Shown here: piece after piece, positions 1,771 through 55,338 of the stretch
How positions within the stretch are numbered: position 1 is the first letter of the stretch
Layout: each line of letters opens with the position of its first letter
NCBI RefSeq assembly: GCF_021026375.1
Contig: NZ_JAJNDB010000004.1
Span: forward strand, 310,001 to 374,000
Origin: Actinomycetospora endophytica
Lineage (GTDB): Bacteria > Actinomycetota > Actinomycetes > Mycobacteriales > Pseudonocardiaceae
Direction of reading: 5' to 3'
DNA length: 64,000 nucleotides
Notes under the pieces: generated by a model
The model's database searches: none
The model's input: the letters and a program-made list of their open reading frames with translations, nothing else
What the model was told of the DNA's origin: nothing
Made by a program: the position numbers and the translations under genes

Positions 1771-1799
1771 GGACGGGCCTACGGCCTAGGGTGCCGGGC

Positions 1800-2561
1800 G
1801 TGGGCATCCTCGATCGTTTCCGACTGGACGACCGCGTCGCGATCGTCACCGGCGCCTCCTCCGGGCTGGGGGCGACGTTCGCGCGCACCCTGGCCGAGGC
1901 GGGGGCCGATGTGGTGCTCGGTGCCCGGCGCATCGAGAAGCTCGACGAGACCCGGGCCGCCGTCGAGAAGCTCGGCCGACGCGCCGTCGCGGTGCGCACC
2001 GACGTCGCCGAGCCCGACGACTGTCAGACCCTCGTCGACGCGGCGATGACCGAGTTCGAGCGCGTCGACGTCCTGGTCAACAACGCCGGCATCGGCACCG
2101 CGGTGCCCGCCACCAAGGAGACCCCGGAGCAGTTCCGGCAGGTGATCGACGTCAACCTCAACGGCTGCTACTGGATGGCGCAGGCGGCGGCGAAGGTGAT
2201 GGCCCCGGGCAGCTCGATCGTCAACATCTCCTCGGTGCTGGGCCTCACGACGGCGGGGCTGCCGCAGGCGGCGTACTCGGCGTCGAAGGCGGGGCTGGTC
2301 GGGCTGACCCGCGACCTCGCGCAGCAGTGGACTCCGCGCAAGGGCATCCGCGTGAACGCCCTGGCGCCCGGGTTCTTCACCTCGGAGATGACCGACGGCT
2401 ACCAGGAGGGCTACCTGGACTCCCAGCTGCCGCGGATCCTGGCCGGCCGCATCGGCGACCCGGAGGACCTGGCGACGGCGCTGATCTTCCTGTGCTCCGA
2501 CGCCGGGTCCTACGTGACCGGGGTGACGCTGCCGGTCGAGGGCGGACTCCTCACGTCGTAG
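1800..2561 (+). CDS. SDR family NAD(P)-dependent oxidoreductase
   Basis: A classical 253-residue short-chain dehydrogenase. It has the cofactor motif TGASSGLG near residues 18-25, NNAGIG in the middle, the catalytic Ser in NISSVLG and Y-S-A-S-K. The C-terminal GVTLPVEGG is also typical. The start is GTG at 1800, 29 bases after the glutaminase stop. Its TAG stop is the first three bases of the TAGGTG that begins the palindrome at 2562-2601. The substrate is unknown; relatives act on hydroxyacyl-CoA or secondary alcohols. Confidence 0.9.
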   Translation: MGILDRFRLDDRVAIVTGASSGLGATFARTLAEAGADVVLGARRIEKLDETRAAVEKLGRRAVAVRTDVAEPDDCQTLVDAAMTEFERVDVLVNNAGIGTAVPATKETPEQFRQVIDVNLNGCYWMAQAAAKVMAPGSSIVNISSVLGLTTAGLPQAAYSASKAGLVGLTRDLAQQWTPRKGIRVNALAPGFFTSEMTDGYQEGYLDSQLPRILAGRIGDPEDLATALIFLCSDAGSYVTGVTLPVEGGLLTS

Positions 2562-3483: not shown

Positions 3484-4848
3484 ATGGATCGGTGGGCGTC
3501 GGGCATCGACACGGCGTGGTTGCAGCTCGAGCGGGAGACCAACCGGATGGTCGTGCACGGGCTGCTGTTCTGCGACGGGCCGGTCGACCTCGCGGCGCTG
3601 CGCGAGCGCGTGGCGCAACGGTGGGTCGCGGTGTACCCCGGGCTGCGGCAGCGCCCGACGTGGCCGGCGGGTCCGGCCGGGCCGGCCCGCTGGGTCGACG
3701 CGCCGCCGGACCTGACGCAGCACGTCACGACGATGGCCCTCCCCGAGCCCGGCGACGACGCGGCTCTGGCGGACCGGATCGGTGCGCTGATGTCCCGCTC
3801 GCTGCCGACCGACCGGCCGTGGTGGCGGATGGAGCTGGTGACCGGGTACGAGCGCGGCACCGCGGTGCACGTCGCGATCCACCACGGCCTCGCCGACGGG
3901 GTGGCGCTCAACCACCTCTTCCACGCCCTCGCCGACCCGGTCTCGGACCCGCGCACGCCCGCCGCCTACGCCGACCCGCCGCGGCATCCGGCGCGGGTGC
4001 ACGACCTGCGCCTGCTGCACCGCGAGATTCGTGACCGGGCGTCGTCGTTGTGGGAGACCGCGAAGCGCGTCGGCACGCCGGACGGGGCGTCCGAGCTCGC
4101 CGCGACCGGGCGGGCCGTGCGGTCGTCGGCGGCGCTGCTCGCCCGACCGCCGCGCGAGGTCCCGTCGGCGTTGCAGGGACGTCCCGGGGTCGCGAAGGCG
4201 GCCCGCTGGACCTCCGCCGTCGCGCTCGACGACGTCCGCGCCGCGGGCAAGGCGGCGGGCGGCAGCGTCAACGACGTCGTCTGCGCGGCCATCGCCGGCG
4301 CGCTGCGGACCTACCTGGGTGACGGTGCGCCGCGGCTCCGCGCCGTGATGCCGAGCAACCTCCGGCCCCTGGACCGTCCGATCTCGGACGAGCTCGGCAA
4401 CGAGTTCGGCCTGGTCCTGCCGCCGTTGCCCACCGACGAGCCCGATCCGGCCCGCCGCGTCGAGCGCATGCACCGGGCGATGGCCACGATCAAGCGCACC
4501 GACCAGGCGCTGGCCACCTTCGCGGGGATCGCCGGCGCGGGGCTGGCCTCGGCGTCGTTCACCCAGGGCCTCGTCCGGCGCTACGCCCGGGCCGCGTCGT
4601 TGATCATCTCCAACGTGCCGGGCCCCCTGGAGGAACTGACGCTCGGCGATACGCGGGTGCGCGACGTGATGTTCTGGGTGCCCTGCTCCGGCGATCTCGG
4701 GCTCGGCGTCTCGGTGCTGTCCTACGCGGGGCGGATTCGGCTGGGCGTGGACGCGGACCTCGGGCTGCTCGGCGGCGAGTCCGGGGTCGATCGGTTCGTG
4801 GCGGCACTGGAGGCGGAAATAGGTGGCCTTCGGCCTTGTGAGCACTAA
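3484..4848 (+). CDS. Wax ester synthase / diacylglycerol acyltransferase (WS/DGAT family)
   Basis: Transfers an acyl group from acyl-CoA to a long-chain alcohol or diacylglycerol to make storage lipid. The 454-residue length fits the family. The catalytic HHxxxDG motif is HHGLADG (H133-H134, D138). The late SNVPGP motif is also family-typical. ATG 3484 has a good GGAGG upstream. The last nine codons, ending in a TAA stop, run into the palindrome at 4835-4880, so the C-terminal residues are encoded by the repeat element. The true acceptor alcohol is not known. Confidence 0.9.
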   Translation: MDRWASGIDTAWLQLERETNRMVVHGLLFCDGPVDLAALRERVAQRWVAVYPGLRQRPTWPAGPAGPARWVDAPPDLTQHVTTMALPEPGDDAALADRIGALMSRSLPTDRPWWRMELVTGYERGTAVHVAIHHGLADGVALNHLFHALADPVSDPRTPAAYADPPRHPARVHDLRLLHREIRDRASSLWETAKRVGTPDGASELAATGRAVRSSAALLARPPREVPSALQGRPGVAKAARWTSAVALDDVRAAGKAAGGSVNDVVCAAIAGALRTYLGDGAPRLRAVMPSNLRPLDRPISDELGNEFGLVLPPLPTDEPDPARRVERMHRAMATIKRTDQALATFAGIAGAGLASASFTQGLVRRYARAASLIISNVPGPLEELTLGDTRVRDVMFWVPCSGDLGLGVSVLSYAGRIRLGVDADLGLLGGESGVDRFVAALEAEIGGLRPCEH

Positions 4849-4898
4849 TTGACGTCATAGCGTCAATTAGTGCTCACAAGCGCGGAGCACACCTAATA
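4819..4898. repeat. Compound palindrome between convergent genes (element E2)
   Basis: The core is a perfect 20-bp inverted repeat, 4835-4854 with 4861-4880, around the loop TCATAG. It is flanked by two small GC stem-loops, GGCC-TTC-GGCC on the left and a CGCGGAGC unit on the right. The ends read TAGGTG on the left and CACCTA on the right. The left half encodes the end of the WS/DGAT. The right CACCTA supplies the TAG stop (4893-4895) of the convergent SDR. The element is closely similar to the one at 6362-6440. It can act as a bidirectional terminator. Confidence 0.8.
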
Positions 4899-5882: not shown

Positions 5883-6365
5883 ATGGTCAGGGGTCGAACG
5901 CACGACGACGGGGCACGGCACGGACCCGGGCACGTCGGCGCACGGAGGCGGCCGGGCTTGCTGCTGATCCTCCTCGGCGTGCTGCTCGCCGCCGCCTGCT
6001 CCTCACCACCGCCCACGAGCGCACCACCGGCCGGCACCGCGGCCGCGCCCTCGGCCCCGGTCACGGCGATCCCCGCGGGGACCTACCGGAACGCCATCGT
6101 GCCCAGCGGGCCGCAGTCGCTCGTCATCGGCGCCGGGTCGAGCTACACGCAGGTGATGACCAGTACCGGGCAGAGCATCCAGGGCACCCTCGGCCAGGAC
6201 GCCCAGCAGCGCGTGACGTTCACGAGCGTCGCCGGCGCGCCGTGTGCCGGCCAGGTCGGGACGTACAAGGCGTCCGTCGACGGGACGACGCTGCACCTGA
6301 CGGCCGTCGCCGACCCCTGCCAGAGTCGTGCCTCGGCGTTCGTCTCCGGGCCCTGGACGTCGTAG
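5883..6365 (+). CDS. Small putative lipoprotein
   Basis: A 160-residue exported protein of unknown function. A basic N-terminus is followed by a hydrophobic segment (LLLILLGVLLAAACS) ending in Cys, which reads as a lipobox. A Ser/Pro/Thr/Ala-rich linker and a compact beta-rich domain of about 100 residues follow. That domain contains two Cys residues (APCAGQ and DPCQSR) that could pair. It has the GTYR...GTLHLTAVADPC pattern of small surface lipoproteins. ATG 5883 follows a GAGGAGAGGGG stretch. The TAG stop is the start of the element at 6362. Confidence 0.7.
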   Translation: MVRGRTHDDGARHGPGHVGARRRPGLLLILLGVLLAAACSSPPPTSAPPAGTAAAPSAPVTAIPAGTYRNAIVPSGPQSLVIGAGSSYTQVMTSTGQSIQGTLGQDAQQRVTFTSVAGAPCAGQVGTYKASVDGTTLHLTAVADPCQSRASAFVSGPWTS

Positions 6366-6440
6366 GTGCGCCGACGCGCCCGTGAGCAGAAATTGATGTC
6401 AGAGCGTCAATTACTGCTCACGAGCGCGGAGCGCACCTAC
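6362..6440. repeat. Stop-to-stop compound palindrome (element E3)
   Basis: The outer arms GTAGGTGCG (6362-6370) and CGCACCTAC (6432-6440) pair. The inner arms around GTGAGCAG and CTGCTCAC pair over about 17 bases with two mismatches. The TAG stops of the lipoprotein (6363-6365) and of icmF (6437-6439) are the TAGGTG ends of the element, so it runs exactly from stop to stop. It is strongly similar to the element at 4819-4898. It is likely a bidirectional terminator and a member of a dispersed repeat family. Confidence 0.8.
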
Positions 6441-9400
6441 ATGGACCGCCGGTACTGCCCGCCCACCTCGAAGAACGCGTCGGTGAGCTGGCCGAGCGAG
6501 CACACCCGCGCGGCGTTCATCAGCTCGGCGAACACGTTCTCCCCGGCGGTCGCGGCGTCCTGCAGGCGCCGGATCGCCTCGGCGGACTCGGTCGAGTGCC
6601 GCGCCTGGAAGTCGTCCAGCCGCGCCAGCTGCGAGGACTTCTCCTCCTCGGAGGCCCGCGAGAGCTCGATCTCCTTGGGCGCCTCGCCTTCCGCGTCCGG
6701 GGGCGCCAGGAACGTGTTCACGCCGATGATCGGCAGCGAGCCGTCGTGCTTGCGGCCCTCGTAGAGCATCGACTCGTCCTGGATCTTGCCGCGCTGGTAG
6801 CCGGTCTCCATGGCGCCCAGCACGCCGCCGCGCTCGGCGATCCGGTCGAACTCGGCGAGCACGGCCTCCTCGACGAGGTCGGTGAGCTCCTCGATCACGA
6901 ACGAGCCCTGGAGCGGGTTCTCGTTGAGCGAGAGGCCCCATTCCTTGTTGATGATCATCTGGATGGCCAGCGCCCGGCGCACCGATTCCTGCGACGGCGT
7001 CGTGACGGCCTCGTCGTAGGCGTTGGTGTGCAGTGAATTGGCGTTGTCGTACAGCGCGCAGAGGGCCTGCAGCGTGGTGCGGATGTCGTTGAACTGCATC
7101 TCCTGCGCGTGCAGCGACCGCCCCGAGGTCTGCACGTGGTACTTCAGCTTCTGCGAGCGCTCGTTCGCGCCGTAGCGCTCGCGCATCGCGACCGCCCAGA
7201 TCCGGCGCGCGACCCGCCCGATCACCGAGTACTCGGCGTCCATCCCGTTCGAGAAGAAGAACGACAGGTTCGGGGCGAAGTCGTCGATGTCCATACCGCG
7301 CGCGAGGTAGGACTCGACGTAGGTGAACCCGTTCGAGAGCGTGAACGCGAGCTGCGAGATCGGGTTCGCCCCGGCCTCCGCGATGTGATAGCCGGAGATC
7401 GACACCGAGTAGAAGTTGCGCACTTCGTGCGCGATGAACCACTCCTGGATGTCGGCCATCATCCGCAGCGAGAACTCGGTCGAGAAGATGCAGGTGTTCT
7501 GGCCCTGGTCCTCCTTGAGGATGTCGGCCTGCACCGTGCCGCGGACGTTCGCGACGGCGTGGGCCACCAGCTCCGCACGCTCGGCGTCGTCGGGCTCCCG
7601 GTCGTGCTCCGACCGGAACGTGTCGACGACCTGATCGATCGCGGTGTTGAGGAAGTACGCGAGCAGGGTGGGCGCCGGCCCGTTGATCGTCATCGACACG
7701 CTCGTCGTCGGCGACGTCAGGTCGAAGCCCGAGTACAGCACCTTCATGTCGTCGAGCGTCGCGATCGAGACGCCGCTGGTGCCGACCTTGCCGTAGACGT
7801 CCGGGGGAGTGGCCGGGTCGCGGCCGTAGAGGGTGACCGAGTCGAACGCCGTCGAGAGCCGCTTCGCCTCGGAGTCCTCCGAGAGGTAGTGGAACCGGCG
7901 GTTCGTGCGGAACGCGTCGCCCTCGCCGGCGAACATGCGGGCCGGGTCCTCGCCCTCGCGCTTGAACGCGAACACCCCGGCGGTGAAGGGGAAGTGCCCC
8001 GGCAGGTTCTCGACCCGCAGGAACCGCAGCACCTCCTCGTCGGCCGAGAACCGCGGCAGCGAGACGCGGTTGACCTTGGAGCCGGACAGCGTCTCCCGGG
8101 TCAGCCGGGTGCGGAGCTCCTTGTCGCGGACGTGGACCACGAGCTCGTCGCCCGCGTAGTCCTCCTTGGTCTGCTCCCAGCCGTCGATCAGCTCCGCGGC
8201 CTCGCGCGGCAGGTCCTTCTCGGCCTCCTCGAGCACGGCGGGCAGCTCGCCGGCGTCGCGGTCGCCGAGGGCCTCGCGGGCCTGCCGGAGGGCGGAACGA
8301 CGGCGGGCCGCGGCGACCATCGACTCGGTCTCGTCGTGGTAGGCCCGGACCGTCGCGGCGACGTCGGCCAGGTAGCGCTCGCGGTCGGCCGGGATCGCCG
8401 AGCCGCTGAAGGTCGACACCGTGGTGTCCGGGATGTCGAGCCGGCCCTGTCCCTCCGCGAGGCCGTGCTCGCCGAGCAGCGTCATCAGCTTGCCGTAGAG
8501 CGCGGTGACGCCCTCGTCGTGGAAGGTCGCGGCGCTGGTCCCGTAGACCGGCATCTCCTCCCACGAGGAGCCGAACGCGTCGCGGTTGCGCAGCAGCTGC
8601 CGGGCGACGTCGCGCCGCGCGTCGTCACCGCCGCGCCGCTCGAACTTGTTGATCGCGACGACGTCGGCGAAGTCCAGCATGTCGATCTTCTCGAGCTGGG
8701 ACGCGGCGCCGAACTCCGGCGTCATGACGTAGAGCGACACGTCGGCGAACTCGACGATCCCCGCGTCGCCCTGCCCGATGCCGGGGGTCTCGACGACGAC
8801 GAGGTCGGCGCCGGAGGCGCGCAGGACGGCGATGACGTCGGCGAGGCGCTCGGGGAGCGCGGTGCCCGAGCCGCGGTTCGCCATGGAACGGAACGAGATG
8901 GGGCCGCCCAGGGCGTTCATGCGGATCCGGTCGCCGAGCAGGGCGCCGCCCCCACGACGACGGGTCGGGTCGACAGCGAGGACGGCGACCTTGAGCTTGT
9001 CCTCGCGGTCCATGCGGGTGCGGCGGACCAGCTCGTCGGTCAGCGACGACTTGCCCGAGCCGCCGGTGCCGGTGATGCCCAGGACCGGGACGTGGCGCTC
9101 TCCGTTCGCGGCGTCGATGCGCTCCCGGACCTCGGTGGGCAGCTCGCCGGACTCGGCCATCGTCACCGCGCGCGCGACGACCGCGCGCTCGCCGGTGAAC
9201 AGGCCCTCCCAGCTCGTGGGGGGCTTCGCGCCGAGGTCCTCGTCGCACTCCCGGATGATGGTGTTGATCATCCCCGGCAGGCCCATCGTCTGGCCGTCCT
9301 GCGGGGAGAAGATCCGCGCCACCCCGTGGGCGTGCAGCTGGTCGATCTCGCGCTGGACGATCACGCCGCCGCCCCCGCCGTACACGCGGACGTGCCCGGC

Positions 9401-9676
9401 GCCGCGCTCGCGCAGCAGGTCGACGAGGTACGTGAAGTACTCGACGTGCCCGCCCTGGTAGGAGCTGATGGCGACCGCGTGCGCGTCCTCCTCGACGGCG
9501 GCGGACACCACGTCGTCGACGGAACGGTCGTGTCCGAGGTGGATCACCTCGGCGCCCTGTCGCTGCAGGATCCGCCGCATGATGTTGATCGCCGCGTCGT
9601 GCCCGTCGAACAGGCTCGCCGCGGTGACCACGCGGATCGGGTTGCTCGGCACGTGCAGGTCGCTCTGCTGGGCCAT
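6437..9676 (-). CDS. icmF: Fused isobutyryl-CoA mutase IcmF
   Basis: Interconverts isobutyryl-CoA and n-butyryl-CoA by an adenosylcobalamin radical rearrangement and carries its own G-protein chaperone. The 1079 residues show, in order, a B12-binding domain (FDGHD, H26), a MeaB-like P-loop GTPase (GITGTGGSGKSS, G200-S210; later NKFERRGGDDA), and the methylmalonyl-CoA-mutase-type TIM barrel in the C-terminal half. This architecture is diagnostic of IcmF. ATG 9676 has an upstream GAGGAC. A 20-bp palindrome 56 bases upstream may control it. Some IcmF relatives act on pivalyl- or isovaleryl-CoA, so the exact substrate is inferred. Confidence 0.93.
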   Translation of the reverse strand: MAQQSDLHVPSNPIRVVTAASLFDGHDAAINIMRRILQRQGAEVIHLGHDRSVDDVVSAAVEEDAHAVAISSYQGGHVEYFTYLVDLLRERGAGHVRVYGGGGGVIVQREIDQLHAHGVARIFSPQDGQTMGLPGMINTIIRECDEDLGAKPPTSWEGLFTGERAVVARAVTMAESGELPTEVRERIDAANGERHVPVLGITGTGGSGKSSLTDELVRRTRMDREDKLKVAVLAVDPTRRRGGGALLGDRIRMNALGGPISFRSMANRGSGTALPERLADVIAVLRASGADLVVVETPGIGQGDAGIVEFADVSLYVMTPEFGAASQLEKIDMLDFADVVAINKFERRGGDDARRDVARQLLRNRDAFGSSWEEMPVYGTSAATFHDEGVTALYGKLMTLLGEHGLAEGQGRLDIPDTTVSTFSGSAIPADRERYLADVAATVRAYHDETESMVAAARRRSALRQAREALGDRDAGELPAVLEEAEKDLPREAAELIDGWEQTKEDYAGDELVVHVRDKELRTRLTRETLSGSKVNRVSLPRFSADEEVLRFLRVENLPGHFPFTAGVFAFKREGEDPARMFAGEGDAFRTNRRFHYLSEDSEAKRLSTAFDSVTLYGRDPATPPDVYGKVGTSGVSIATLDDMKVLYSGFDLTSPTTSVSMTINGPAPTLLAYFLNTAIDQVVDTFRSEHDREPDDAERAELVAHAVANVRGTVQADILKEDQGQNTCIFSTEFSLRMMADIQEWFIAHEVRNFYSVSISGYHIAEAGANPISQLAFTLSNGFTYVESYLARGMDIDDFAPNLSFFFSNGMDAEYSVIGRVARRIWAVAMRERYGANERSQKLKYHVQTSGRSLHAQEMQFNDIRTTLQALCALYDNANSLHTNAYDEAVTTPSQESVRRALAIQMIINKEWGLSLNENPLQGSFVIEELTDLVEEAVLAEFDRIAERGGVLGAMETGYQRGKIQDESMLYEGRKHDGSLPIIGVNTFLAPPDAEGEAPKEIELSRASEEEKSSQLARLDDFQARHSTESAEAIRRLQDAATAGENVFAELMNAARVCSLGQLTDAFFEVGGQYRRSM

Positions 9677-31657: not shown

Positions 31658-31705
31658 GCATGTGCGTGCGTTTCCGTGTCAGGACACGGAAACGCACGCA
31701 CATGC
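31658..31705. repeat. Perfect 23-bp inverted repeat in the leader of the 31718 gene
   Basis: Arms 31658-31680 and 31683-31705 match completely around a 2-base loop. The hairpin ends two bases before the GGAGG ribosome site of the plus-strand gene. A near-identical palindrome is at 34991-35032. A GCGCGGAGCGC word abuts its left arm, as in elements E1-E3. It may be an attenuator or translational control, or simply a mobile palindrome. Confidence 0.75.
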
Positions 31706-34990: not shown

Positions 34991-35032
34991 CGTGCGTGCG
35001 TTTCCGTGTCAGAACACGGAAACGCACGCACG
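34991..35032. repeat. Second copy of the leader palindrome, 19-bp arms
   Basis: Arms 34991-35009 and 35014-35032 match perfectly around CAGA. The core is almost identical to 31658-31705, including the GTTTCCGTGTCAG centre. It begins six bases after the decarboxylase stop and ends 13 bases before the GGAGG of the tautomerase gene. Confidence 0.75.
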
Positions 35033-41427: not shown

Positions 41428-42561
41428 CTAGCGGCCGGGGATGGGCTTCCCCGAGAACAGGTACTTCTGGGCGAGGGCCACCGGGTCGTAGGCGGGTGCC
41501 GAGGACACGGCGGGCTCCGGATCCGCGGTCGTCACCGGCCGGGTCTGGACGATGCACACCGGGTCGCCCGCCCGACGGTGCCTGCTGATCACCCACTCGA
41601 CGTCGACCGCGTGCCCGTAGTGCTCCTCGATGGCGGTGACGGCCGACGCGATCGCGCCGATCTGCTCGTCGTCGAGCACGCGGCGGTCGGCCAGCTTGGC
41701 GGGCATCTCGATCTCCGTGACGGCGCCGACCGCGAAGTCGAACGCGCTCACGATCTTCTTGTGTGCCACGTCGTAGCGCAGCACCCGCCCGTCCGCCTTC
41801 CCCACCTCGACGTGGTCGGGGTCGACCAGGCCCTGGACGATCGCCTCGCCCCAGCCCCAGCTGGTCTCGACGACGACGCGGTCCCGCTTTCCCGTGACGG
41901 GGTGCACCGAGAACGCCACCCCGGAGGCCCGGGCGTGGATGAGCTCGATGACCCCGACCGCGATCGGCATGTCGTGGTGGCTGATGCCGCGCCGCAGTCG
42001 GTAGGCCAGGGCCCGGGCCGTGAACAACGACCCCCAGCAGCGCCGCACCGAGTCCAGCACCCGCTCGATGCCCGAGACGCCGAGGTAGGTGTCGAAGATC
42101 CCGGCGAACGAGGCGTCGGCGGCGTCCTCCCCGGTGGCCGACGAGCGCACCGCGACGGGCACGTTGACGTCGACGCACCGCAGGCACAGCTCCTCGTAGG
42201 CCTCGGTGAGCCGGGCGGTGAGGTGCTCGCTGATCGGGGTGGCCACGAAGAGCTCGCGGATGGCGGCCGACGCCTGGTCGACCTCGAGCTCCGACGGGTC
42301 GGGGCCGAGGCTGGCGAGGACCGCGTCGATCCGCCCGTCGAGACCGGAGTCCCGGCAGTGGCGGAGGTAGGCGTCGACGGTGACCGCGAAGCCCTGGGGC
42401 ACCTGCACCCCGGAGGCCAGCAGCTCGGCGAGGCGGCCCATCTTGGCGCCGCCGCAGGCCACCGCCGCCTCGGGCGCCACCTCGTCGAGCCACGCGACGG
42501 CGTCGCAGCTGTGCCGCTCGAGCCCCGCGCCGTCCCCGGTCTCCGTCGACGCCGTCGTCAT
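41428..42561 (-). CDS. PEP-synthase-like dikinase, ATP-grasp subunit
   Basis: A 377-residue pyruvate-phosphate-dikinase N-terminal domain. It has CGGAKMGRLAELLASGVQVP, VAVRSSATGEDAADASFAG, a TYLGVSG loop and EVEWVI-like blocks (DVEWVISRH) ending in CIVQTRPV. It lacks the swivel and PEP domains, which are on the neighbouring gene. Its ATG overlaps that gene's stop. Such split pairs are phenylphosphate synthase or HpeHI-like phenol dikinases that phosphorylate aromatic hydroxyls with ATP. The substrate is inferred from the cluster. Confidence 0.83.
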   Translation of the reverse strand: MTTASTETGDGAGLERHSCDAVAWLDEVAPEAAVACGGAKMGRLAELLASGVQVPQGFAVTVDAYLRHCRDSGLDGRIDAVLASLGPDPSELEVDQASAAIRELFVATPISEHLTARLTEAYEELCLRCVDVNVPVAVRSSATGEDAADASFAGIFDTYLGVSGIERVLDSVRRCWGSLFTARALAYRLRRGISHHDMPIAVGVIELIHARASGVAFSVHPVTGKRDRVVVETSWGWGEAIVQGLVDPDHVEVGKADGRVLRYDVAHKKIVSAFDFAVGAVTEIEMPAKLADRRVLDDEQIGAIASAVTAIEEHYGHAVDVEWVISRHRRAGDPVCIVQTRPVTTADPEPAVSSAPAYDPVALAQKYLFSGKPIPGR

Positions 42562-45202: not shown

Positions 45203-45954
45203 TCACCGGGTACGACGGCGGGGGCGGCGCGGCGGCCGTCGTCGTCGGCGCGTCCGGGGCGCTCGGCTCGGCGATCGCGTCCCGGCTGGCCGGCGCCGGG
45301 CTCGTCGTCGTGGGGGTGGCGCGGAAGCCGGTGGACGCGGCCGGCGTGATCGGGTGCGCCGCCGACATCGGGGACGACGCCGCGGTCGACGTGATCCGCG
45401 CGGCCGTCGACGACGTCGGGCTGCCGGTGCGGATGGTCGTCCAGGCGGCCGGGCTGCCGGCGGCCGGGCCGCTCCCGACGATCGACCCCACGGCGCTCGG
45501 CTCCGCGGTGTCGCTCAAGGTCGGCGGGATGCTCCGCCTGGTCCGGGCGGTCGCGGACCGGCTGGGGCCGGGTTCGCGGCTGGTCGCGCTCGGCGGGCAC
45601 TACGGCACCGAGCCCTCGCCGCACACCTGCGCCGCCGGGGTCACGAACGCGGCGCTGGCCAACCTCGTGCGCCAGCTCGCCGACCATCACGGCCCCGACG
45701 GGGTCACCGCGCACCTCGTCGCTCCCGGTCCCGCCGACACCGACCGGCTGCGGCGGCTCTCGCAGGCCCGGGCCGACGAGCGCGGGGTGGACGTCGAGGA
45801 GATCCTCGCCGAGCGCCGGGCCGAGTCGCCGCTCTCGGTCCTGGTGACGCCGGAGCAGGTCGCGTGGGCGGTCGCGACGCTGCTCGACCCGGAGGCCGAC
45901 GCGCTCACGGGCTCGACCCTCGCCCTCGATGTCGGGGCCCGGCGGGGCATATAG
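45199..45954 (+). CDS. SDR-like protein with degenerate active site
   Basis: A 251-residue short-chain-dehydrogenase-fold protein. The nucleotide motif VVVGASGALGSAIA is intact. At the usual YxxxK position the sequence reads AGVTN, so both catalytic residues are lost. The Asn-Ala region and the C-terminal GSTLALDVGARRG remain typical. It starts at TTG 45199, coupled to the HAD gene. The TAG stop is the start of the TAGGCG end of an intergenic palindrome. It may be non-catalytic. Confidence 0.78.
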   Translation: MITGYDGGGGAAAVVVGASGALGSAIASRLAGAGLVVVGVARKPVDAAGVIGCAADIGDDAAVDVIRAAVDDVGLPVRMVVQAAGLPAAGPLPTIDPTALGSAVSLKVGGMLRLVRAVADRLGPGSRLVALGGHYGTEPSPHTCAAGVTNAALANLVRQLADHHGPDGVTAHLVAPGPADTDRLRRLSQARADERGVDVEEILAERRAESPLSVLVTPEQVAWAVATLLDPEADALTGSTLALDVGARRGI

Positions 45955-45994
45955 GCGCGCTGTCGCGCCTGCTCACGAGGCCGCAGGCCACCTA
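45952..45994. repeat. Stop-to-stop palindromic element (element E5)
   Basis: The TAG stop of the SDR begins GGCGCG-CTGT-CGCGCC, a perfect 6-bp hairpin. TGCTCACGAG and a second hairpin, GGCC-GCA-GGCC, follow. The element ends in CACCTA, which holds the TAG stop of the RIO kinase (45992-45994). The second half matches the left half of the element at 4819 in reverse. The long central stem seen in E2 and E3 is missing. Confidence 0.7.
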
Positions 45995-55211: not shown

Positions 55212-55338
55212 GAGCGAGGGGCACCTTCGGTCGATCTAGTCGATCGAAGGTGCCCTTCGTTCGTTCGGGGCGGCGGGCGGTGATTCCGGCGGTCGGCGCC
55301 CCTCGCCCGTCTATTCGAGCGAAGGTGCCCTTCGCTCG
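55212..55338. terminator. Palindromes downstream of the VOC gene
   Basis: A 23-bp inverted repeat, 55212-55234 with 55240-55262, pairs in 20 of 23 positions around TCTAG. A second perfect 10-bp hairpin at 55316-55338 (CGAGCGAAGG and CCTTCGCTCG) repeats the same AAGGTGCCCTTCG words. Together they likely terminate the VOC transcript. The interval to the HxlR gene holds no ORF of note. Confidence 0.6.

Follow-up and report, generated by a model that had tools for sequence, protein, structure and literature searches.

The DNA analysed here, called the window, is a stretch of 64,000 nucleotides of the Actinomycetospora endophytica genome (6.98 Mb, 17 contigs), corresponding to positions 310001–374000 of contig C12, in which several gene ends are occupied by short palindromic elements. 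The genes were called with a custom small gene finder based on codon usage, and the four loci E1 to E4 were read directly; the names SDR and icmF are those of the sequence-only reading. The features are given below in window coordinates, and no strand is assigned to the elements and cores.

1791–2561, plus strand: SDR gene, which terminates in the TAG of E1
2559–2616: E1, made up of the TAG stop (2559–2561), a core and a right mini-hairpin, the left mini-hairpin being absent
2562–2601: core of E1, GTGAACG family, 40 bp
2604–2616: right mini-hairpin of E1, GGCGC-GGA-GCGCC
4820–4895: E2, a full unit TAGGTG...CACCTA (C12:314820–314895)
4838–4877: core of E2, GTGAGCA family, 40 bp
6363–6439: E3, a full unit (C12:316363–316439)
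6368–6379 and 6424–6434: mini-hairpins of E3
6382–6421: core of E3, GTGAGCA family, 40 bp
6437–9676, minus strand: icmF gene, which terminates in the CTA of E3
31662–31701: core of the GTGCGTG family, 40 bp, intergenic between divergent genes
34992–35031: core of the GTGCGTG family, 40 bp, intergenic between co-directional genes
45952–45994: E4, with two mini-hairpins (45954–45969 and 45979–45989) and both the TAG and CTA stops kept

The border words of these elements had been taken for the actual stop codons of the neighbouring genes, and this is correct for all six of them: TAG 2559–2561, CTA 4893–4895, TAG 6363–6365, CTA 6437–6439, TAG 45952–45954 and CTA 45992–45994. For example, TAG 6363–6365 of E3 is the stop of the lipoprotein gene and CTA 6437–6439 that of icmF, and re-reading shows that the right-hand SDR at E2 terminates at CTA 4893–4895. 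In addition, two genes stop within the stem itself, namely the gene to the left of E2 with TAA 4846–4848 and the gene to the right of E1, on the minus strand, with TGA 2598–2600.

The proposed kinship of the four loci holds for E2 and E3, which are full copies with central stems of the same GTGAGCA family, but E1 carries a sister core (GTGAACG) and E4 reads only as a relic. That is to say, the stem of E1 is not a copy of those in E2 and E3; it belongs to a different dispersed 40-bp family, and a sequence search found many recurrences of it elsewhere in its own genome. The core of E4 is gone apart from TGCTCAC (45970–45976), and the locus reads as a decayed relic of the unit from which the core was lost. 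The word GCGCGGAGC, which had been noticed after the right arm of E1 to E3, is a form that the right mini-hairpin commonly takes, but by itself it shows no enrichment in the window (7 occurrences against 7.6 expected). Core-less double mini-hairpins were also considered as a class and rejected, the pattern being mostly noise: among 24 short candidates, only E4 is convincing by eye. Besides the GTGAGCA family, the window holds a second family of 40-bp cores with the word GTGCGTGCGTTTCCGTG, seen in the hairpins at 31658–31705 and 34991–35032.

The typical full unit consists of TAG, a GTGCGC-TNC-GCGC mini-hairpin, 2 bases, a 40-bp hairpin GTGAGCA...TGCTCAC, 2 bases, a second mini-hairpin and CTA. 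A mini-hairpin whose stem has at least 4 pairs is present on the left in 46/52 copies and on the right in 46/52, compared with 19% of shuffled left flanks. Because the left and right stem words are unlike in 24 of the 47 copies that have both, yet each is self-complementary, the mini-hairpins are regarded as units of their own. TAGG stands at the left of 43/52 copies, preceded by G in 27, C in 9 and A in 7, and CCTA at the right of 37/52, followed by C (which makes GTAG on the other strand) in 19, G in 11, T in 6 and A in 1. In the predicted RNA fold, a single long hairpin is best in 51/52 copies (the seven energies printed range from −55.7 to −68.5 kcal/mol), and no U-tract was seen by eye after the hairpin in the copies read.

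The core has a marked length preference. With GTG..CAC hairpins counted in 400 kb of its own genome, 25 have 40 bp and none has 41–65, and each length from 28 to 39 gives 0 to 7 at a looser cut-off. The same 40-bp peak is found in relative G210 (12 at 40, at most 2 at any other length); G042 shows it moderately (12 at 40, 7 at 35), and G098 lacks it (6 at 40, 6 at 35). A core was accepted with at least 13 of 17 Watson-Crick pairs, or 12 in the species-pair comparison and the search for gains. By their starts, the 67 cores sampled in the genome itself divide into GTGAGCA (52), GTGCGTG (10), GTGAACG (3), GTGAGCG (1) and GTGAGTG (1); 66 of them are distinct sequences, so that no recent burst is visible. 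Moreover, the arms are complementary within copies in 800/867 cells, compared with a mean of 731 and a maximum of 754 when arms are dealt among copies, and this excess indicates that copies move or evolve as whole hairpins. In the GTGAGCA family of this genome, 25/52 copies have a T.G or C.A mismatch at core pair 16, the other pairs mostly matching, and perhaps this mismatch keeps the palindrome imperfect.

The family extends far beyond the window. The pattern GTGAGCA-N(12–42)-TGCTCAC has 186 matches in the whole genome and none in its reversed control, and TAGGTG-N(50–80)-CACCTA, the form of palindrome that had been proposed for testing the family, has 78 matches against 1; the outcome that would have made the palindromes coincidental terminators, their absence elsewhere or random placement, was not seen. 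Cores of 40 bp outside this class, sought with a looser second pattern, number 118 against 2 in the control; in G098, G042, G151, G075 and G118 that pattern stays at or near the control level, with 2–5 matches and controls of 1–3. Together with the placement described next, these counts give good support to the view of a dispersed REP-like family that provides convergent genes with their stops. The palindrome family is thus real and larger than first described, and the transferable 40-bp core, the coexistence of several core families, the differences in place between species and the apparent decay of E4 are features invisible from one window.

As for placement, 860,775 bases of the genome were examined, cores within 100 bases of sequence ends being set aside. 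The density of cores in them is inflated, since 396,775 of these bases had been chosen for holding listed elements. Among the 67 cores, 41 lie between convergent genes, 23 between co-directional genes (12 and 11) and 3 between divergent genes, and none lies inside a called gene; the convergent background in the same DNA is 150/784 adjacent gene pairs (Fisher p = 9e-13). A stop codon is found within 40 bp of the core in 64/67, and both stops are so placed in all 41 convergent cores. The convergent excess is also seen in the window plus one contiguous stretch of 400 kb, starting just upstream of the first listed match on contig C9, where 9/14 GTGAGCA hairpins are convergent compared with 81/428 gene pairs. 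In the own 400 kb, TAG is the stop in 25/39 genes beside a core versus 56/323 others, and this bias is weaker in relatives: 7/19 versus 61/365 in G042, 7/18 versus 25/136 in G210, and 4/10 versus 40/232 in G098. The idea that stop codons are precisely targeted was tried and dropped, protein length being unchanged in 16/41 comparisons of a gene beside a core with its core-less ortholog and in 209/383 where neither has a core.

Other intergenic repeats exist in these genomes. One family of nested palindromes, ACGAACGA...TCGTTCGT, occurs in the own genome at L024:8404–8479, L033:720–774 and L039:19063–19115 and in G042 at L087:172–223. Longer intergenic hairpins, seen at 55212–55262 of the window and at L085:8610–8654, L081:7462, L082:7008 and L083:9159, are of two types: CACCTTCGGTCGA in the window and G258, and GGACGCCCTCGCTGC in G178, G189 and G135.

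When 297 genomes of the family were searched with the GTGAGCA pattern, the 18 of this genus had 3 to 186 matches, and the others had 0 to 12, chance matches of other lengths included. The exceptions outside the genus are two genomes of the genus coded g26, with 25 and 62 matches, mostly of 40 bp among the matches listed; by sequence, this genus is probably Saccharopolyspora. In named genomes, GTGAGCACT-N22-AGTGCTCAC occurs in at least 110 stretches, and the 80 matches listed belong, except for one in Rhodococcus, to Actinomycetospora and Saccharopolyspora. The 16 Saccharopolyspora sites (15 loci listed) all lack TAGG/CCTA ends, and mini-hairpins are no more frequent there than expected by chance (3/16 and 2/16, versus 19% shuffled). 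These 16 sites and the Rhodococcus site comprise 11 convergent and 6 co-directional settings. In Saccharopolyspora oryzae, two unlike 40-bp cores, L216:5401–5440 and L216:5466–5505, lie 25 bases apart between the same convergent gene pair. No description of such repeats in Actinomycetospora, Saccharopolyspora or Pseudonocardiaceae was found by title among openly licensed papers.

The 3′ end of icmF was compared across the genus in a survey that left out G227, and the same site was seen to hold different cores. In G042, G098, G075 and G151, whose icmF genes are 93–94% identical, the flanks, the mini-hairpin and the GTGAGCACT/AGTGCTCAC ends are common, and the inner bases differ between the species and pair within each; the cores of G098 and G075 retain the common word TCCGTGC. 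A 40-bp GTGAGCA hairpin is also present at this stop in G000, G210, G118, G166, G189, G135 and G258, the one in G210 ending in CGC and not CAC. The 40-bp cores that G235 and G243 carry there belong to other families, and in G200, G219, G178 and G250 a GTG..CAC core was not seen. The pair G166/G200 (icmF 97% identical) allows the comparison at further sites, site 9670 being unmapped and outside it. The interior identity is 0.42 at 42098, 0.35 at 196268 and 0.42 at 168067, and it is 0.77 and 0.88 at 74226 and 163259; at 191534 (icmF), the hairpin of G200 is different and longer. At 168067, 25 bases on each side of the 40-mer are identical and 24/40 are alike within it, the G200 copy being poorly paired (11/17).

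The mapped comparison has 128 rows, in which each row is a species pair, one site may count several times and cores near locus ends are skipped. The core is present in both species in 67 rows and absent from the other species in 61, which means that the hairpin is not essential there. In the 67 rows, the mean interior identity is 0.50 at a flank identity of 86.7%, compared with 0.45 between non-orthologous cores from the same species, and the slightly higher orthologous mean is partly explained by the resemblance between cores of one class. The interior identity is at most 0.5 in 38 of these rows and at least 0.7 in 11, which shows that replacement has not reached all sites, and the icmF site alone contributes 24 of the 67. 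Judging from the alignments, relatives often retain the gene-end hairpin with its interior apparently replaced, at some sites between flanks that are more than 90% identical, and we infer that the core is swapped whole.

Gain of a whole unit was observed once. Among 19 core-lacking comparisons printed (11 species pairs), one is clean, G042/G098 at 188978, and most others are too diverged for the edges to be read; the hairpins printed for G042 28680 and G210 23792 look like chance, and the former is one of the 128 rows as well. At the clean site, G042 has a full unit and its sister G098 an empty site with the same neighbour gene; G075 shares that neighbour and lacks a core, and when the other 17 genomes were inspected by eye, a unit was seen in G151 only, beside a different neighbour. 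The gain is flanked by a direct repeat AC(GG), readable as 2 or 4 bp, and the right gene has a TGA stop in G098 and, by eye, a TAG in the same frame in G042, where the gene is uncalled. At this site, G075 (L289) shows about 30 extra bases bounded by TCACG, perhaps a footprint. Presence also varies at the SDR stop of E1, read by eye in 14 of the 18 genomes (G135, G178, G166 and G243 left out): G000 and G210 have GTGAACG cores, G258 has a GTGAGCA core, G075 an apparent relic, and ten have none. Species-pair mapping places a GTGAGCG core of G178 between the same flanks.

How the copies became alike within a genome can be explained in several ways. If there were little or no mobility, ectopic gene conversion might have homogenised the old terminators within each genome; it would then be natural that the same gene ends often retain a hairpin while its interior changes, and that cores are common within a genome. 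For instance, the commonest core class of G189 makes up 34/50 listed cores and is seen once in 22 in its sister G135, where another class has 8/22, despite icmF being 97% identical (the counts cover the listed places, 50 of 103 in G189 and 22 of 95 in G135). However, the differences end at the edges of the 40-mer beside unshared flanks, which would give RecA few common bases to pair, and the one clean gain exists, so this explanation seems unlikely.

Next, the elements have to be placed among known repeats. Like REPs, they are short palindromes repeated at many extragenic sites; like REPINs, they contain two such palindromes that are inverted and fold together; and their termini give TAG stops downstream of genes, as in REPs and GTAG REPs. 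GTAG REPs and their head-to-head dimers are small palindromes inverted round a spacer, with TAG ends that are often stops, and most of them lie where the neighbouring genes converge or run in the same direction (Di Nocera et al. 2013, PMC3733652). The inverted pairs, the mostly convergent or co-directional setting and the TAG ends as stops are shared with GTAG REP dimers in that account (PMC3733652); as for the GTAG tag, the base before TAG is G in 27/43 here. Unlike in GTAG REPs, the spacer is a 40-bp hairpin, itself a family that exists elsewhere without tagged ends, and no Y1 transposase was found in the 18 genus genomes. GTAG repeats are listed there in Proteobacteria, Cyanobacteria, Chloroflexi and the PVC group, while a text search for the word start "actinobacteri" gave no occurrence (PMC3733652). 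REPINs are described, in what the source excerpt covers, as RAYT-tied inverted doublets that form hairpins, evolve as populations within genomes and fold as long hairpins or clovers (PMC3116915). Hairpin-forming inverted doublets and within-genome populations are shared with this description, but REPINs keep their doublet ends, whereas here no RAYT was found and relatives carry different cores at the same site (same excerpt, PMC3116915).

It may still be supposed that these are classical REPINs moved by RAYT, a Y1 HUH transposase too divergent to detect or missing from the assemblies, since tagged mini-palindromes inverted round a spacer downstream of genes, with TAG stops, match GTAG REPs as far as the source describes them (PMC3733652). 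We hold this to be improbable: the RAYT family Y1_Tnp (PF01797) was matched in 0/18 genomes of the genus, of which 15 reach a completeness of 90% or more (the controls gave hits in 5/14), and the part shared with Saccharopolyspora is the 40-bp core, without the TAGG/CCTA ends and with mini-hairpins at chance. Membership of REP or REPIN proper therefore fails on the partner transposase. Because the RAYT test fails and the transferable core has one length, the element is set apart from REPIN and called REP-like. Compared with a MITE, which has terminal inverted repeats and a target duplication, there is one clean gain with a direct repeat of 2–4 bp; as for a parent transposon, the genes between close copies, read by eye, are all ordinary-looking and none resembles a transposase. 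In searches of other collections, Rfam gave no match on the window at the gathering score, and the plasmid and phage collections gave none to 6300–6460 of the window (the E3 region) at E 0.01.

A stable hairpin just 3′ of stop codons is also what an intrinsic terminator has, and from their position and very stable predicted fold the elements are plausible, putative terminators. To our knowledge, I-shaped terminators have no fixed length. In the consulted part of their description, these terminators of GC-rich bacteria are stable hairpins without a U-tract at transcript ends and are defined by structure, whereas the element here is defined by a shared 40-bp sequence family (PMC8269248). If ordinary intrinsic terminators had evolved in place and owed their likeness to a preference of the termination machinery, the position at 3′ ends, the stable predicted fold and the arm complementarity (800/867 cells, above the maximum of 754 for dealt arms) would follow; but a single 40-bp length, interiors shared within species, and TAG and mini-hairpin ends that also occur where the gene end is not a stop codon would be unexpected, and this reading is very unlikely. 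Least credible of all is that the elements are signals for DNA uptake or protein binding, with a dialect in each species, whose hairpins resemble terminators by chance: dialects do differ between species and pairs of uptake sequences reportedly form terminator hairpins (PMC2267715), but the long stem words lack the abundant single copies of uptake sequences, being almost confined to cores (0–3 occurrences outside; GTGAGCACTAATTG 23 inside and 0 outside, AATTGACG 40 inside and 2 outside). The 7-mer GTGAGCA occurs 107 times inside cores and 197 times outside, the latter being taken as chance for a 7-mer.

On the whole, the elements are probably REPIN-like dispersed cassettes without RAYT, whose copies spread, whose 40-bp cores are replaced as a unit, and which are kept at gene 3′ ends, where they are expected to be bidirectional terminators. 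A cassette of three hairpins (the 40-bp core hairpin with a mini-hairpin on either side), with TAG and CTA as its borders, would be copied to new sites, and where a site is already occupied, the whole 40-bp core would be swapped; with cores replaced as a unit, each genome would come to be dominated by its own core sequences. With the TAG and CTA ends and the stops in the stem, an insertion at a gene end would do almost no harm, and the hairpin between convergent genes would stop both transcripts as a terminator free of a U-tract. Copies may thus survive almost only 3′ of genes, because the ends and the stem give stops and both transcripts are expected to finish at the long stable hairpin. The copying would be done by some recombinase or conversion process other than a Y1/RAYT enzyme. 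More tentatively, the 40-bp hairpin may itself be a mobile unit of fixed length: it is possible, but we would not count on it, that a recombinase other than Y1/RAYT swaps cores at occupied sites through little more than their GTG/CAC ends and so gives whole genomes their own dialects over no more than the divergence between sister species.

If the cassette reading is true, movement of REP-like repeats without RAYT would be open to direct testing in this genus, since differences at shared sites exist at 97% icmF identity. Many gene ends in the genus would then carry a selfish or domesticated repeat that serves as stop signal and probably as terminator, and hairpins would be exchangeable in place without the transposase that is thought to drive the spread of REPs.
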